From positions 173,215,209 to 173,279,208 of the forward strand of contig NC_073305.1 of the NCBI RefSeq assembly GCF_027595985.1: 64,000 nt of DNA, read 5' to 3'. The notes under the pieces were generated by a model. The model did no database searches and was not told the origin of the DNA. It saw only the letters and a list, made by a program, of their open reading frames with translations. The position numbers were made by a program, and so were the translations under genes. The stretch comes from Sorex araneus. Taxonomy: Eukaryota; Chordata; Mammalia; Eulipotyphla; Soricidae. Every line of letters starts with the position of its first letter. Within the stretch, counting starts at the first letter, position 1. Shown piece by piece: positions 1,501 through 62,745 of this stretch.

Positions 1501-1744
1501 GGGCTTGAGCGATAGCACAGCAGTTGGGCGTTTGCCTTTCACGTGGCCGACCCGAGTTCGATTCCTCCGCCCCTCTCGGAGAGCCCGGCAAGCTACTGAG
1601 AGTATGGAGCCTGCATGGCAGAGCCTGGCAAGCTACCCGTGCATATTGGATATGCCAAAAAAAGTAACAATAAGTCTCTCAATGAGAGACGTTACTGGTG
1701 CCTGCTCAGACAAATCAATGAGCGACGGGATGACAGTGACAGTG
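1501..1744 (+). mobile_element. Shrew tRNA-SINE type B (RTE-tailed), with TSD
   Basis: The head has an A-box-like TAGCACAGCAGT and a B box AGTTCGATTCC. The body has GGCAAGCTAC twice, then ATATGCCAAAAAAAGTAAC, and the 3' end is GACAGTGACAGTGA. The flanks are ACTTTATATT and ACTTTGTATT (1,491-1,500 and 1,745-1,754). Confidence 0.93.
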
Positions 1745-11003: not shown

Positions 11004-11122
11004 TACCCGTGCCTATTGGATATGCCAAAAACAGTAACAATAAGTCTCTCAATGGGAGACGTTACTGGTGCCCGCTCGAACAAATCGATGAGCAACGGGA
11101 TGACAGTGACAGTGACAGTGAC
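11004..11122 (+). mobile_element. Type B SINE, 5'-truncated, 550 bp inside intron 1
   Basis: Only the 3' half is present: TATGCCAAAAACAGTAAC, GTTACTGGTGCCCGCTCGA and TGACAGTGACAGTGACAGTG. The pol III promoter head is missing. Confidence 0.9.
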
Positions 11123-22067: not shown

Positions 22068-22318
22068 TCTGTATCACAGTAGCACTGTTATCCCGTTGCT
22101 CATCAATTTGCCCAAGTGGGCACCAGTAATGTCTCCATTATGAGACTTGTTACTGTTTTTGGCATATTGAATACACCACAGGTAGCTTGACAGGCTCTGC
22201 AGTGCAGGCAGGATACTCTCTGTAGTTTGCCAGGCTCTCTGAGAGGGATGGAGGAATTGAACTTGGGTCGGCCACCTGCAAGGCAAACACCCTACCCTCT
22301 GTGCTATCACTCCAGCCC
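22068..22318 (-). mobile_element. Type B SINE, with TSD, nested in L1
   Basis: TTATATCAC flanks at 22,059-22,067 and 22,319-22,327. The RTE-like end reads ATCCCGTTGCTCATCAATTT on the + strand. Confidence 0.92.
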
Positions 22319-22720: not shown

Positions 22721-23457
22721 TTTTGAATTAATATTTTTGTGTTTGGGGGGTAGATGCCAACAAGTGGTGCTTCTGGGTTGTATGGAGTTCTATTCTTGCC
22801 TTTTCAAGAGATCTTCATGTTGCTTTCCATAGTGGTTGAAGGAAATGATGTGACCACCGACTGTGAATGAGGTCTTTTCATTTCACCAAGTCTCTGCAAA
22901 CATGAGTTATTTTCAGACTTTTTTGATATATATACCATTCTCCCTAGTGTGAGATGATATGTTTATATTGTTTTGAGTTGTGTTTTCCTAATTGGTGATA
23001 AAGAACACTTACACACTCCTACTAGCTATCTATCTGTATGTCTTTTACAGGAAAGTGCATGTTCATTTTCTTTCCCCATATTTGGATGTATTGTTTTTTT
23101 CTGTTGACATTGTGCATGCATATGAATCTTGGATCACGAATCATGAATCATGGAAATCCCGTTAACCACTGATTTCTCTGGTAGGCTCAGTAACCTTTCA
23201 TTTCGTCCTTTCCCTGAGATCTTAGAAGTTTATCTCAACTGGGCCCTCCCAAGAATGTCACATTGGGGGCTCTTTCAGGGTCAGGGGAATGAGATTCAGC
23301 TTGTTACTGGATTTAGCATATGAATACACCATGGGAAGCTTGCAAGACTGTCCCATGTGGGCAGGAAACTCTCAGAAGATTGCCAGTTTTTCACAGAGGG
23401 AGAAACAGGCTACATGATACAAGCTTCTGAGGGCTTGCTTTTAAGTCTCTCTTTGGA

Positions 23458-23659
23458 TGTTGGCCGTTAATGGGATTATACACACCTGGGATCCTCTGCC
23501 GGTCCCTTTATGCATGAGGTCTGTCCAAACGTGTGGAGAGGTGCCTCAAGTATGGCTGTAGCTAGGTTCTGGTGGTCTTTGGCGGCCGGGAGCTCTGCTC
23601 AGGGTGGGGAGGGAAACTGGAGCCAATCCCCTCCGAGGTGCCCTGGGGAAGACAGCCAG
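23458..23659 (+). repeat. Inverted repeat, left arm
   Basis: It reads ATGTTGGCCGTTAATGGG to GACAGCCAG and is the reverse complement of 23,788-23,990 with scattered mismatches. The arms are about 200 bp with about 130 bp between. Confidence 0.85.
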
Positions 23660-26536: not shown

Positions 26537-26805
26537 TCATCATCATCATCATCACTGTCATCCCGTTACTCATCGATTTGCTCAAGCGGACACAAGTAAC
26601 GTCTCGATTCCTTCCACCTCTGAGACTTTAGCAGCCTCTCCTTACTCATCTTTCCCAACAATTGGGGGCTCTTTCAGGATCAGGGGAATGAGACCTATAG
26701 TTACTGTTTTTGGCATATAGAATATGCCATGAGTAGCCTGCCCGGCTCCTCTGCACATGCGGCCAGGATACTCTTGGTAGCTTGCCGGGCTCTCCAAGAG
26801 AAATA
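26537..26805 (-). mobile_element. Type B SINE variant with an internal extra module
   Basis: The + strand reads ATCCCGTTACTCATCGATTT, then an extra segment of about 100 bp with TTGGGGGCTCTTTCAGG (26,661), then the normal body TTACTGTTTTTGGCATAT and GCTTGCCGGGCTCTCCAAGA. The tRNA head is absent. The extra module is shared with the 23 kb composite element. Confidence 0.75.
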
Positions 26806-26845: not shown

Positions 26846-27394
26846 TTCTATGATTTGTTGCCTACTGTCTGAACTCCATCAGATATGGTTCCATCAGATA
26901 TGGTGCTATGGTGTGGTATTTATGGAAAATGGGTTGAAAGTGTCTTATAATGTGTCAGAAAATGGCCTGGAGTGTGGCAGTGGTTGGGTAGTGGAGGTCG
27001 GCTGCCAGGGCTGGGTCTCTTGGGTGGGGAGGCTTCTCACCCGCCCCCCTCTGGGGCGCCCCGAGTGAAAACAGCCTGGCCTGGAGTCTGGCGGCATGGC
27101 TCTGGGGGCCTCATTTTATACCCCATCTGGGAGGAGCAGCAATTGAGATCAGAGGGTGGCCTATGAGGAGATTATCTGATTATCTGGTGCTGTGCCCAAA
27201 GGGTGTGGTAGGGTGTGGCTTATGGGTGTGATCCTGGGTCACCTGGAGATTGGGGGATAGTAGACAGAGGATCTCTGCTTCTGCTCCCATTGAGTCCAGA
27301 GTCCAAGGTCACAAAGTTCCTCATTATCTAGGTTCTGTGGGACTTCATTCATGTGCGAGGCTCAGCCGGAGTAAGTAGGCAAAGCAAGAGAAAT

Positions 27395-27494: not shown

Positions 27495-27679
27495 CAAAAG
27501 TAAACTGTGGGCACATGAGGGACTTGAGCGTTTGGTAACTGAGAGCCATGTCTCTTGCTGGCCCTCAGAGACGGATGGACAAAGGACTGGGGAACAGATA
27601 AATGGGGCCCTAGGCAGGTCTGGAGTCAGTTTCTTTCTTTCTCCTCCCCAGTGAAGTCCGAACTCTCCCTTACAGCACA

Positions 27680-27956
27680 ATTGTCATCACTTGTCATCCT
27701 GTTGATCTTCAATTTGCTCGAGCAGGCACCAGTAACATGTCCATTTGTCGCTGTCATGTGCTAGTGTAGCCCAATGATATCTGCTCACTCCAGGAACAGG
27801 AAGAGCCTCAAATTGTTCATTCAGGGCTTTGATGAAGAAGTCTGACCATCTTGTTGGTGGGTGGCCACTCGGTCTTTTGACATCCGTGGAATCCAGTCAG
27901 TAACAGCTCTAGTCCAGCGGTCATCTCTGAATCGCATTACGTGTCCAACCCATATG
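27680..27956 (-). mobile_element. RTE-type LINE, 3' terminal fragment of the reverse transcriptase ORF
   Basis: Read on the minus strand this encodes the C-terminal signature of RTE-clade LINE proteins: GHVMRFRDDRWTRAVTDWIP, then after a one-base deletion PPTRWSDFFIKALNE, then HWATLAHDSDKW and YWCLLEQIEDQQDD followed directly by a stop. The element ends within about 10-20 bp of the stop, as expected for RTE elements with almost no 3' UTR. It is 5'-truncated at about 27,956 and frameshifted, so it is dead. Its last 45 bases match the 3' end of the type B SINEs at about 40 positions (hand count). The family is clear; the subfamily is not. Confidence 0.85.
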
Positions 27957-28385
27957 GCACTGAAAGAGCAAAATTGTAGGTGTAGTTTTGATCATAGTTC
28001 AAGTCATCAGAGTTCCATCAGCCTAGTTCTATCCTCCTTATCTTCCTAGTCCTTGTTCTCTTAGTCCTCGACTTCTTCATCATAGTCCTTTTAGTTCTAG
28101 TCCTTATGTTCTTTGTCTAGTCCCCTCCTACTCCTTACAGGATTGTTATATAGAAATCATGAAGGGTGTGCGCACACATAGGTGGGGTTGAACATTATCA
28201 TAACATCAAACAGATGTAGAGCCACTCCTTCAGTGGAAGTTCTTGGAGATTAACTCAAGGACAAAATCTTGTCTGAGTATTCATCACTCTAGGTTACTGG
28301 GAGATCCACTCAAGGGCAGGATTTCATCTAGGGTATATTGCTTTCTCCTTAATCTATTTAAACAATTATAGTAAATTTACTTCTT

Positions 28386-28612
28386 AGCGGGTAGGGAGTT
28401 TGTCTTGCATGCAGCCAACCTGGGTTCAATTCCTCCATCACTCTCTCAGAGAGTCAGGCAAGCTACCAAAGAGCATCCCACCTGCACGACAGAGCCTGGC
28501 AAGCTACCCGTGGTGTATTGGATATGCCAAAAATAGTAACAACAAGTCTCACAGTGGAGATGTTACTGGTGCCCACTCGAGCAAATGGATGAACAATGGG
28601 AGGACAGTGCTA
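28386..28612 (+). mobile_element. Type B SINE, head-truncated, inside LTR-like copy 1
   Basis: It starts at AGCGGGTAGGG inside the A box, so the 5' 15-20 bp are missing. It ends GGACAGTGCTAC. The empty site is seen in copy 3 (TTTACTTCTAATATTTC at about 58,107). Confidence 0.9.
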
Positions 28613-29216
28613 CTAATATTTCTATTCATTTTGTATGAACACAGTTAGAAATATATTAAGCTTAAAGGATGGGTCTTTCTGGGGAAATCTTGTTATATAT
28701 CCCAGACTACAGTCTTCAGGCCAGTTTAGTTTTTCATAATCCCAGCAGGGTCCTTATTCAGTTACTTCTTTTTGGTTCATGACAGAATTTGTTCCATGAC
28801 CATGTTCTTAACATATTATACTTCTTATGGCACTTATCTTGTCCCTTTCCAATGCCAGAGTAGCTTAGAGTTTGCCTTGGGTTCATCCAGTCCCTTCGTT
28901 GGGACCCTCCTTTGGGGGGTGTTCGGAAGTAAGGGCAACTGAGGCTTAAGTCAAGTAAATATGTTGGATGCCCAGGAGTAAATATTATTTGGAGTCAACT
29001 CCCATGTTACAAAAGCATTTCATGAACTGTCTTCCTGTGTCTATACAAAAAGGACATTGCTAGGCCATGCAAGGGACATAAAGGAAAGAGAAAAGCAATA
29101 TAGGATTATTAGTGCTTGATGGAATTGGGTGTGCCTCAGGGGCACTGTTGTGGGAGTAACTCAATAAACCTAAGCTCCCTGAGGGAGGAGCAAGGACAAC
29201 CCAATGCTATCTAACA

Positions 29217-30182: not shown

Positions 30183-30405
30183 GCACTGTATCACTGCTGT
30201 CCAGTTGTTCATCGATTTACTCGAGCGGGCACCAGTAACGTCTCCATTGTGAGACTTGTTACTGTTTTTGGCACATTGAATATGCCACAATAGCTTGCCA
30301 GGCTCTGCCATGTGGGCAGGATACTCTCGGTAGCTTGCCAGGCTCTCCGACAGGGACAGAGGAATCGACCGAGTGCAAGGCAAATGCCCTACCTGCTGTG
30401 CTATA
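30183..30405 (-). mobile_element. Type B SINE
   Basis: + strand ATCGATTTACTCGAGCGGGC to CTACCTGCTGTGCTAT. The flanks ATACAAAATTG and ATATCAAAATTG suggest a TSD. Confidence 0.92.
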
Positions 30406-31308: not shown

Positions 31309-31487
31309 TTTTTGGGGGGTGGGGGAGCACCCAGCAATGCTCAGTGTGATGCATTACTCCTGGCTCTGAACTCAGGAATTACTCCTGGCGGTGTTCTAGG
31401 GACCATATGGGATGCTGGGGATTGAACCCAGGTTGGTTGTGTGCAAGGCAAACGCCCTTGCCCACTGTGCTAACACTCCGGACCCCA
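31309..31487 (-). mobile_element. Type A SINE
   Basis: TTTTTGGGGGGTGGGGGAGC to CTAACACTCCGGACCCC. The B-box complement is GGATTGAACCC. Confidence 0.88.
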
Positions 31488-33742: not shown

Positions 33743-33992
33743 GGGCTGGAGCGATAGCACAGTGGTAGGGCTTTCGCCTTTCACGCAGCCACCCCGAGTT
33801 TGAGTCCTCCGCCCCTCTCGGAGAGTCCGGCGAGCTACTGAGAGTATCGAGCTCGAGCAGCAGAGCCTGGCAAGCTACCGGTGCGTACTGGATATGCCAA
33901 AAACAGTAACTATAAGTCTCTCAATGAGAGACATTACTGGTGCCCGCTCGGACAAATCGATGAGCAATGGGATGACAGACAGACAGACAGTC
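33743..33992 (+). mobile_element. Type B SINE, full length, with TSD
   Basis: Perfect AATGTATTATTTT flanks at 33,730-33,742 and 33,993-34,005. The 3' end has a (GACA)n tail instead of poly-A. Confidence 0.95.
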
Positions 33993-34382: not shown

Positions 34383-34600
34383 TGTAGCCTACTAGGGTTC
34401 CATTCCTCTGTACCCCTCAGAGAGCCCGGCAAGCTACTGAGAGTATCCTGCCTTCCCAGCAAAGACTGGCAAGCTACCCGTGTCATATTTGATATGCCAA
34501 AAACAGTAACAACAAGTCTCACAATGGAGACGTTACTGGTGCCCGCTCGAGCAAATTGATGAACAACGGGACAACAGTGCTACAGTGCTACAGTGCTGAT
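34383..34600 (+). mobile_element. Type B SINE, head-truncated
   Basis: It begins near the B box (AGGGTTCCATTCCTC) and ends in three CAGTGCTA-type units. No A box. Confidence 0.9.
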
Positions 34601-42757: not shown

Positions 42758-43004
42758 TGTCATCATCCCATTGCTCATCGATTTGTTTGAGCAGGCACCA
42801 GTAATGTCTCTCATTGAGAGACTTATTGTTACTGTTTTTGGCATATCCAATACGCACAGGTAGCTTGCCAGGCTCTGCAGCGCGGGCTTGATACTCTCGT
42901 TAGCTTGCTGGGCTCTCCGAGAGGGGCTGAGGAATCGAACTCCGGTCGGCCATATGAAAGGAAAATGCCCAACCGCTGTGCTATCACTCCAGATACTTTC
43001 TATA
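42758..43004 (-). mobile_element. Type B SINE, with TSD
   Basis: GTATCTAGAAC flanks at 42,747-42,757 and 43,005-43,015. The + strand shows TTGCTCATCGATTTGTTTGA and, at the right, CTGTGCTATCACTCCAG. Confidence 0.94.
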
Positions 43005-47866: not shown

Positions 47867-48111
47867 CACTGTCACTGTCACCCCGTTGCTCATCGATTTG
47901 TTCAAGCGGGCACCAGTAATGTCTCTCATTGAGAGACTTATTGTTACTGTTTTTGGCATATCCAATATGCTACGGGTAGCTTGCCAGGCTCTGCTGTGCG
48001 GGCGCGATACTCTCAGTAGCTTGCCGTGCTCTCTGAGAGGGGTGGAGGAATCGAACATGTGTCGGCCACGTGAAAGATGAACACCCTACTGGGTGCTATG
48101 GCTCCAGCCCA
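47867..48111 (-). mobile_element. Type B SINE, with TSD
   Basis: Perfect TAAGAAAAATGT at 47,855-47,866 and 48,112-48,123. The reversed tail is CACTGTCACTGTCACC. Confidence 0.95.
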
Positions 48112-58622: not shown

Positions 58623-58796
58623 GTGAACACTTAGTGCTAACCAATACAAATCTACCTTGTGGTCCATAAGATAAATGTGAAAATAGAGGTATTCTGCACA
58701 TTTCATCTCAATAGGTACTTAGGTTACACCTAGAGTTTTTACCAAGCCAAAGTTTGTGATAAAAAATTTTGTGTATATGCATTTCCCCAATTTCTT

Positions 58797-58984
58797 TCTT
58801 TCTTTCTTTTTTTTTTTTTTGCTTTTTGGGTCACACCTGGCAATGCACAGGGGTTACTCCTGGCTCTGCACTCAGGAATTACCTCTGGCCGTGCTCAGGG
58901 GACCATATGGGATGCTGGGATTTGAACCCGGGTCGGCCGCGTGCAAGGCAAACGCCCTACCCGCTGTGCTATCTCTCCAGCCCC
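58797..58984 (-). mobile_element. Young type A SINE
   Basis: TTTTTGGGTCACACCTGGCA to GTGCTATCTCTCCAGCCCC. AATTTCTT flanks at 58,789-58,796 and 58,985-58,992. Confidence 0.94.
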
Positions 58985-59214
58985 AATTTCTTCTATTTTT
59001 TGGTAGAATTTTATTCATATGGAACTATTTAATCAGCGTGATGTGAAAATTCTTAATTTCAATAAACACTTCCCAGTCCACTCTTGCTCATATTTTCTGC
59101 ATATTTGATTTAATTGGGTAGCTTTTTATTTTATCCATTCACTCTATATCTCTGGGTGTATCTGTTTGGATTTTCCCTTTTTCTGTCCTCTTTTGTGTTT
59201 CTTGACTATTCCTT

Positions 59215-59454
59215 GGGATAGCACAGTGGGTAGGGTGTTTGCCTTGCACGTGGCTGACCTGGGTTCAATTCCTCCATCCCTCTTGGAGAGCCCGGCAAGC
59301 TACCAAGAGTATCCCACCCGCATGGCACAGCCCAGCAAGCTCCCTGTGGCATATTCAATATGCCAAAAACAGTAACAAGTCTCACAATGGAGACGTTACT
59401 GGTACCCGCTCCAGCAAATTGATGAGCAATGGGACGACAGTGACAGTGATACAG
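59215..59454 (+). mobile_element. Type B SINE, with TSD
   Basis: Perfect TGACTATTCCTT at 59,203-59,214 and 59,455-59,466. The head starts at GGGATAGCACAG, so the first 10-12 bp are missing. The tail is GACAGTGACAGTGATACAG. Confidence 0.95.
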
Positions 59455-59532: not shown

Positions 59533-59722
59533 GATTCCTTCGACCCTCTCGGAGAGCCTGGCAAGTTACCAAGAGTATTGCGCCTGCACAGCAGAGCCTG
59601 GCAAACTACCCGTGGCATACTGTATATGCCAAAAACAGTAACAAATAAGTCTCACAATTGAGAGACATTGCTGGTGCCCGCTTGAAAAAAATGATGAGCA
59701 ACGGGATGGCAGTGACAATGAG
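59533..59722 (+). mobile_element. Type B SINE, head-truncated
   Basis: It starts after the B box (TTCCTTCGACCCTCTCGGAG) and ends GATGGCAGTGACAATGA. It lies 67 bp from the preceding TSD. Confidence 0.88.
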
Positions 59723-62489: not shown

Positions 62490-62745
62490 AGACCCAATAG
62501 CACAGCAGGTAGGGCGTTTGCCTTGCATGCGGCCGACCCAGGTTCGATTCCTCCATCCCTCTCAGAGAACCCAGCAAACTACCAAAAATATCTTGCCTGC
62601 ACAGAAGAACCTGGCAAGCTACCCATGGCGTATTCTATATGCCAAAAACAGAAGCAACAAGTTTCACTTGGAGACATTACTGGTGCCCCCTTGAGCAAAT
62701 CGATGAGCAACAGGATGATAGTGATTACACTGTATCACTGTGATA
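62490..62745 (+). mobile_element. Type B SINE
   Basis: AATAGCACAGCAGGTAGGGC head, intact B box GGTTCGATTCC, end GAGCAAATCGATGAGCAACA followed by a GATACAGTGAT-like tail. Confidence 0.93.

Follow-up and report, generated by a model that had tools for sequence, protein, structure and literature searches.

Evidence for a composite shrew SINE with a tRNA-like head and an RTE-derived body and tail

Where does the 3' tail of the shrew SINE here called type B come from, and how much of the remaining SINE shares that source? The question arises from a stretch of 64,000 nucleotides of Sorex araneus DNA (the window), in which the end of an RTE LINE open reading frame lies among copies of this SINE. The answer proposed here, with a probability of about 0.9, is that type B is a composite SINE whose body and tail are both RTE-derived, stand under a tRNA-like head and are copied by the LINE enzyme. 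Genome-wide searches covered the window's own 2.406-Gb genome, and copies found in it carry L numbers. The features of the window are collated in Table 1.

Table 1. Positions of the type B copies, the RTE-derived pieces and a type A copy in the window.
Feature	Position	Strand	Remarks
Type B SINE B1	1523..1738	+	
Type B SINE B11	11004..11108	+	5' truncated, 41 nt of body remaining
Type B SINE B22	22078..22300	-	
Headless bipartite RTE deletion derivative	23132..23583	-	5' UTR fused to 3' end, tRNA-like head absent
B26	26553..26801	-	5'-truncated, extra ~80 nt between body and tail
Further RTE 5' UTR-like piece	27208..27367	-	72% over 165 nt
Target-site duplication, 3' side of RTE insertion	27674..27684	.	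11 bp, 1 mismatch vs other copy
5'-truncated RTE LINE insertion	27685..27966	-	From translation, frame pieces and flanking direct repeats
Target-site duplication, 5' side of RTE insertion	27967..27977	.	11 bp direct repeat
Type B SINE B28	28386..28614	+	Head, RTE 5' UTR body, RTE 3' tail
Type B SINE B30	30188..30397	-	
Type B SINE B33	33764..33978	+	
Type B SINE B34	34383..34583	+	Head mostly missing
Type B SINE B42	42763..42974	-	
Type B SINE B47	47873..48089	-	
Type A SINE example	58741..58989	-	Comparison family: same head, A-rich tail
Type B SINE B59a	59225..59442	+	
Type B SINE B59b	59543..59714	+	Head missing
Type B SINE B62	62504..62723	+	

The RTE fragment had been placed by the earlier note at 27680 to 27956; the location was correct, and the true extent (Table 1) runs slightly past the end given there. 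The fragment lies on the minus strand, which the earlier note had not stated, and contains the last RTE codons, the stop and the terminal repeat. On that strand the frame of 27680-27956 translates as ...RWSDFFIKALNEQFEALPVPGVSRYHWATLAHDSDKWTCYWCLLEQIEDQQDDK followed by the stop, and the C-terminus of the RTE-like ORF (27956-27680) closes with YWCLLEQIEDQQDDK and the stop. The piece matches the genomic RTE copies L074 and L079 at 86% and 90% of nucleotides, respectively, over 270 nt. The further RTE 5' UTR-like piece listed in Table 1 shares the strand of the fragment, from which it is about 300 bp distant, and lies outside the direct repeats of the fragment. Searches of viral contigs found no match to the window RTE C-terminus and no exact copy of a 30-mer taken from the SINE tail; in prokaryote genome contigs, the C-terminus matched two loci only, over 18 and 12 residues, which were judged to be chance. 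The same short C-terminal piece gave no match in Pfam or in the PDB.

The last codons of the window RTE piece (YWCLLEQIEDQQDD) are homologous to the type B tail: 39 of 45 bases agree (TGT...GAC), close to the hand count of about 40 given earlier. Over the full aligned stretch, the window RTE sequence and the type B consensus are identical in 53 of 62 columns, with one 1-base gap; the alignment scores 77, and 5000 dinucleotide-shuffled versions of the RTE sequence scored no higher than 29 (z = 28). When the RTE piece was used as a blastn query, 13 window matches besides itself were obtained, each of which is a type B tail. The window set of 13 type B copies was compiled from this search and a SINE search combined, and its majority consensus reads YWCPLEQIDEQRDD in the RTE frame.

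For the genome, a protein search with the RTE C-terminus was run, in which the best 150 of 117,585 first-look candidates were scored. The RTE 3' consensus was prepared from 30 genomic loci, of which one apparent duplicate was removed to leave 29, and the type B consensus from 28 copies, with B28 of the window among them. These two consensuses agree in 63 of 68 aligned bases, with two 1-base gaps, a better match than that of the window RTE copy. The LINE-SINE pair with a common 3' end that had been proposed from the window thus reappears in the consensuses, and an RTE consensus ending unlike the SINE, one of two outcomes named beforehand as speaking against the pair, was not what the 29 copies gave. 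Their consensus ends ...HWATLAHDRDKWRCYWCPLEQIEDQRDDK, stop, and then TACAAGTGA repeats. As had been expected of an RTE element, the 3' UTR is nearly absent: the stop sits within the terminal repeats GACAAGTGATACAAGTGA, namely in GACAAGTGA, and is followed by TACAAGTGA or CAAGTGA repeats and then by the flank. The terminal repeats of the two elements correspond: the RTE has (TACAAGTGA)n, and the SINE has either (TACAGTGC)n or (CAGTGA)n.

Among the type B copies of the window and of two genomic sets (L004-L030 and L111-L130), at least two subfamilies can be told apart, one with CAATGGAGAC and (CAGTGCTA)n tails and the other with CTCTCAATGAGAGAC and (CAGTGA)n tails.

The shared tail was also examined for a conserved RNA fold, and none was found (z = -0.28 for the SINE consensus, -1.55 with more repeat and +1.24 for the window RTE). 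A conserved stem-loop is not supported, the folds being not clearly better than those of shuffles. A change from CCC/GGG to CCT/AGG between the SINE and the window RTE might be taken as compensatory; CpG decay yields both sides of it, and no weight was given to it.

Homology alone does not give the direction of transfer, and the tail could have entered the LINE by insertion of a type B SINE at its 3' end. SINE copies do lie near RTE sequence in places, as in L076, where a type B copy begins about 40 nt past the tail. Twenty longer genomic RTE copies were inspected, and all 20 bear the tail in register at their own end; in none (0/20) do the 200 nt upstream of the tail contain a SINE head or body, so that a match brought about by a SINE within the LINE, the second outcome named beforehand, was not encountered. 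In one copy (L061), a single frame of 398 amino acids with a reverse-transcriptase domain continues through the tail to the stop, and in the 29-copy consensus the 86 codons upstream of the stop form one open frame. Since all 20 long copies and the L061 frame agree in this, the tail (the last 18 codons) is LINE coding sequence. The window RTE piece, with 11-bp direct repeats flanking the whole unit, is an insertion in its own right and no case of a SINE within a LINE. An origin of the tail from an inserted SINE was accordingly rejected as very improbable.

The observed layout of type B consists of a head (positions 1-67 of the consensus), a piece of 111 nt (66-176), a few junction bases, and the tail (184-251), which comprises the last 18 LINE codons and short terminal repeats. 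The 111-nt body was compared with a consensus of the RTE 5' UTR, which was derived from eight RTE 5' ends (L131-L138) taken from matches to a 735-nt query spanning the 5' UTR and the ORF start. The two agree in 103 of 111 bases, with a score of 182; none of 2000 mononucleotide shuffles scored above 35. Of 10,198 candidates for the 735-nt query, the best 40 were scored; all 40, among them the copy from which the query was taken, aligned over 716 nt or more with an identity of 90% or higher. Alignments of single copies extend from the 5' UTR into the start of the RTE ORF. All 13 type B copies of the window match the RTE 5' UTR, the truncated B11 over 41 nt only. Within the RTE 5' UTR one segment is nearly duplicated (GAGAGCCCGGCAAGCTACC and GCAGAGCCTAGCAAGCTACC), a feature that the SINE has inherited.

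SINE bodies without head or tail were found near RTE copies. In L102, L103 and L109 such a body lies within the RTE 5' UTR, upstream of the start of the endonuclease ORF, in inverted 5' parts. The same 5' UTR is present in L063, where a type A SINE separates the body from the ORF start by its insertion; L065 has it too, the sequence examined stopping short of the ORF. The 5' parts of L102, L103 and L109 are inverted relative to the remainder of the element. Inversions of this kind are known from L1, where they arise by twin priming, and those seen here are what twin priming would give.

These results bear on the view that the tail alone was captured and that the SINE body is unrelated or from another source. 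This was the picture drawn by the earlier note, and it suits the window, in which a single RTE piece bearing a 3' end was found outside SINE-like elements. Given that 103 of 111 bases match a 5' UTR which in genomic copies leads directly into the start of the RTE ORF, capture of the tail alone was rejected and is given hardly any probability. The derivation of the tail from the RTE stands; as a full account of the RTE contribution it fell short, the body being RTE 5' UTR as well.

The head has a different relationship. It agrees in 64 of 67 bases, consensus against consensus, with the head of the second SINE family of the window, type A. The type A consensus gave no match to either RTE end, the best scores being 19 and 14. 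Because head, body and tail each have their match, and the type A consensus has no RTE match, type B can be described as a type A-like head joined to an RTE 5' UTR piece and an RTE 3' end. The tRNA-like character of the head is suggested by a type A copy at 31408-31479, which scored 31.1 with the Rfam tRNA model (gathering score 29); no window copy of type B attained the gathering score. The primers of a shrew-specific (Soricidae) SINE assay, which derive from SINEBase and are given in Table 1 of PMC8608897, were searched in the window with up to 3 mismatches and gave 14 forward matches and 23 reverse matches (as complement), with chance expectations from shuffles of 0.01 and 0.06, respectively, as befits shrew DNA. 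Type A, the target of that assay (PMC8608897), has the head in common with type B (64 of the first 67 bases). It differs from type B in its other body, its A-rich tail, its longer duplications more often starting with AA, and the lack of an RTE match.

The best 40 type A matches, found with a single-copy query, are 98-100% identical; the other copies matched by two type B queries are 84-92% identical, and RTE matches 90-93%. These identities, which come from a biased sample, suggest that type A may have been active more recently than type B and the RTE.

How the three parts came together can be considered with the help of elements that lack the head. RTE 5' UTR joined directly to the RTE 3' end was found in L046, L071, L072, L075 and L104 and once in the window (Table 1), with pairwise identities of about 69% to 84%; the window element matches L071 at 83% over 476 nt. 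The L075 element carries a (GAT)n tail. Between its body and tail, B26 retains about 80 nt that are absent from the other type B copies of the window, and a comparable stretch is kept in four of the headless elements measured (the window's, L046, L071 and L104). B26 is thus a possible intermediate, and B26 and the headless forms fit a stepwise origin of type B. The most likely course would be that a bipartite, non-autonomous form of the LINE with an internal deletion gained the head just past the B box and that a further stretch between body and tail was lost. We infer this order of steps, the headless forms themselves being observed.

Alternatively, a single template switch could have joined type A RNA to RTE-derived RNA, with no separately mobile headless intermediate. 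The head/body junction just past the B box motif would suit such an event. Template switching is also named as a route to chimeric SINEs in PMC7245038. Against it stand the headless bipartite elements (five genomic loci and one in the window) and the roughly 80 nt kept by B26 and lost in type B, as a stepwise path predicts, although both might be side branches. A one-step origin is therefore a serious but less favoured possibility.

Once formed, type B would have been transcribed by pol III from the tRNA-like head. The end of its RNA would resemble that of the LINE RNA; because of this likeness the LINE reverse transcriptase would accept type B RNA as a template, and the LINE endonuclease would choose the insertion site. 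Target sites were compared on this point. To be counted, a duplication had to be exact, 9 bp or longer and next to the head; the samples consisted of 60 type B copies (13 from the window and, from the genome, 27 in L004-L030 and 20 in L111-L130) and 33 type A copies (20 genomic, 13 from the window), all being best matches to single queries and hence a non-random sample. Exact duplications were found for 30 of 60 type B and 27 of 33 type A copies, so that half of the type B copies had none of 9 bp beside the head. As a control, flanks were swapped between different genomic copies, and duplications then appeared in 24 of 2162 type B pairs and 4 of 380 type A pairs, as against 25 of 47 and 18 of 20, respectively, with the copies' own genomic flanks. 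RTE copies showed a duplication in 20 of 49 cases. The median length was 11 bp for type B, 15 bp for type A and 11 bp for the RTE.

A run of T at positions -14 to -8 precedes 16 of the 30 type B duplications (background 0.134, p = 2e-7) and 5 of the 27 type A duplications (p = 0.29); the difference between the two types has p = 0.007 (Fisher). The same run was observed at 8 of the 20 RTE duplications (p = 0.003), and T at -1 at 16 of the 20. When four doubtful RTE duplications (L038, L048, L073 and L079, which consist of simple repeat or do not adjoin the tail) were left out, the values were 8 of 16 and 13 of 16. T at -1 occurs in 20 of 30 type B and 15 of 27 type A cases and, being enriched in both, does not discriminate between them. 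A count confined to the window had found a T ahead of the duplication in all 9 cases (8 type B and the RTE), as against 20 of 30 in the larger type B set; B11, whose match lies inside its own tail repeats, had been left out of that count, and B28, B34, B62 and B26 gave no duplication. The first base of the duplication is A in 17 of 30 type B and 22 of 27 type A copies, so that only starts with AA differ clearly (3 of 30 versus 17 of 27). In duplication length and in the upstream T-run, type B is like the RTE copies and not like type A.

L1 mobilises many mammalian SINEs, and the SINEs that it serves end A-rich, as type A does. Type B might likewise be moved by L1, its RTE sequences being passengers; this general role of L1 would favour such a reading, as would the T before the duplication that is enriched in type A too. 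Type B ends in short repeats and has no A-rich tail, and its target-site features are those of the RTE copies rather than of type A, which makes mobilisation by L1 improbable. The 3' end and the target sites together indicate that type B is probably mobilised by the RTE enzyme. A Tn-TA insertion pattern is reported for Bov-B, the Sauria SINE, plant RTEs and other elements of the RTE clade in PMC13295347, and the pattern found here for type B and its LINE resembles it.

The partner LINE appears to be RTE-type, an assignment drawn from the call made in the earlier note, from RTE-like C-terminal motifs, from the reverse-transcriptase domain and from the short 3' UTR. The 398-amino-acid frame of L061 matches Pfam RVT_1 with E = 4.7e-21. 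A piece of 121 amino acids from L102 matches Exo_endo_phos_2 with E = 6e-4 and 20.1 bits, which is under the curated cut-off of 27.4, and the next piece of 117 amino acids (L109) gave no LINE-type match in the Pfam domain search. The PDB matches of the L061 reverse transcriptase are R2 and L1 proteins; a search of viral contigs with it returned no match.

According to the main text of PMC6542046, an RTE of Sorex araneus, RTE1_Sar, is highly abundant in this species and was horizontally transferred between strongylid nematodes and the shrew; the word SINE is absent from that text. RTE1_Sar and the RTE described here are both abundant in the shrew genome, and this likeness of host and abundance, rather than of sequence, indicates that they are probably the same element. 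We lean towards the joint reading that a LINE which entered the shrew lineage from parasitic nematodes supplied the body, the tail and the copying machinery alike, that the head of a resident A-tailed SINE was afterwards fused to a deletion derivative of this foreign LINE, and that one genome thus holds two SINE families with one promoter and two different LINE helpers. A helper of nematode origin, if true, would be unusual. Should the RTE be RTE1_Sar, type B would have to be younger than the reported transfer between nematode and shrew, unless the SINE was transferred too; the age of the oldest type B copies would then give a minimum age for the transfer. Independently of the identity of the LINE, types A and B have a common promoter head and different tails, and their insertion sites differ as those of L1-type and RTE-type elements would; the contrast provides a natural test, within one genome, of whether the 3' end of a SINE chooses its LINE helper.

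In the literature searched, no description of the shrew SINE-RTE pair was recognised; the pair may be catalogued in Repbase, Dfam or subscription papers. The design of a head on a bipartite RTE is already known in other animals. Table 1 of PMC3747384 assigns an RTE or Bov-B tail to several mammalian SINEs or SINE-like elements (Bov-tA, the Afro SINEs, SINE2-1_EC, RTESINE1 and MAR4), and its promoter column gives an RTE 5' end for RTESINE1 and MAR4; the words shrew and Sorex have no occurrence in the text of that article. According to this table, these SINEs are RTE-tailed like type B, with other hosts and other RTE families. A similar design is that of hagfish SINE1-1_EBu and its relatives, which are described in PMC7245038 as a small-RNA head on a bipartite RTE. 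As in type B, a piece of the RTE 5' UTR is followed there by the RTE 3' end; their head is derived from 7SL RNA and their partners are hagfish RTE families, whereas type B combines a tRNA-like head with a shrew RTE.
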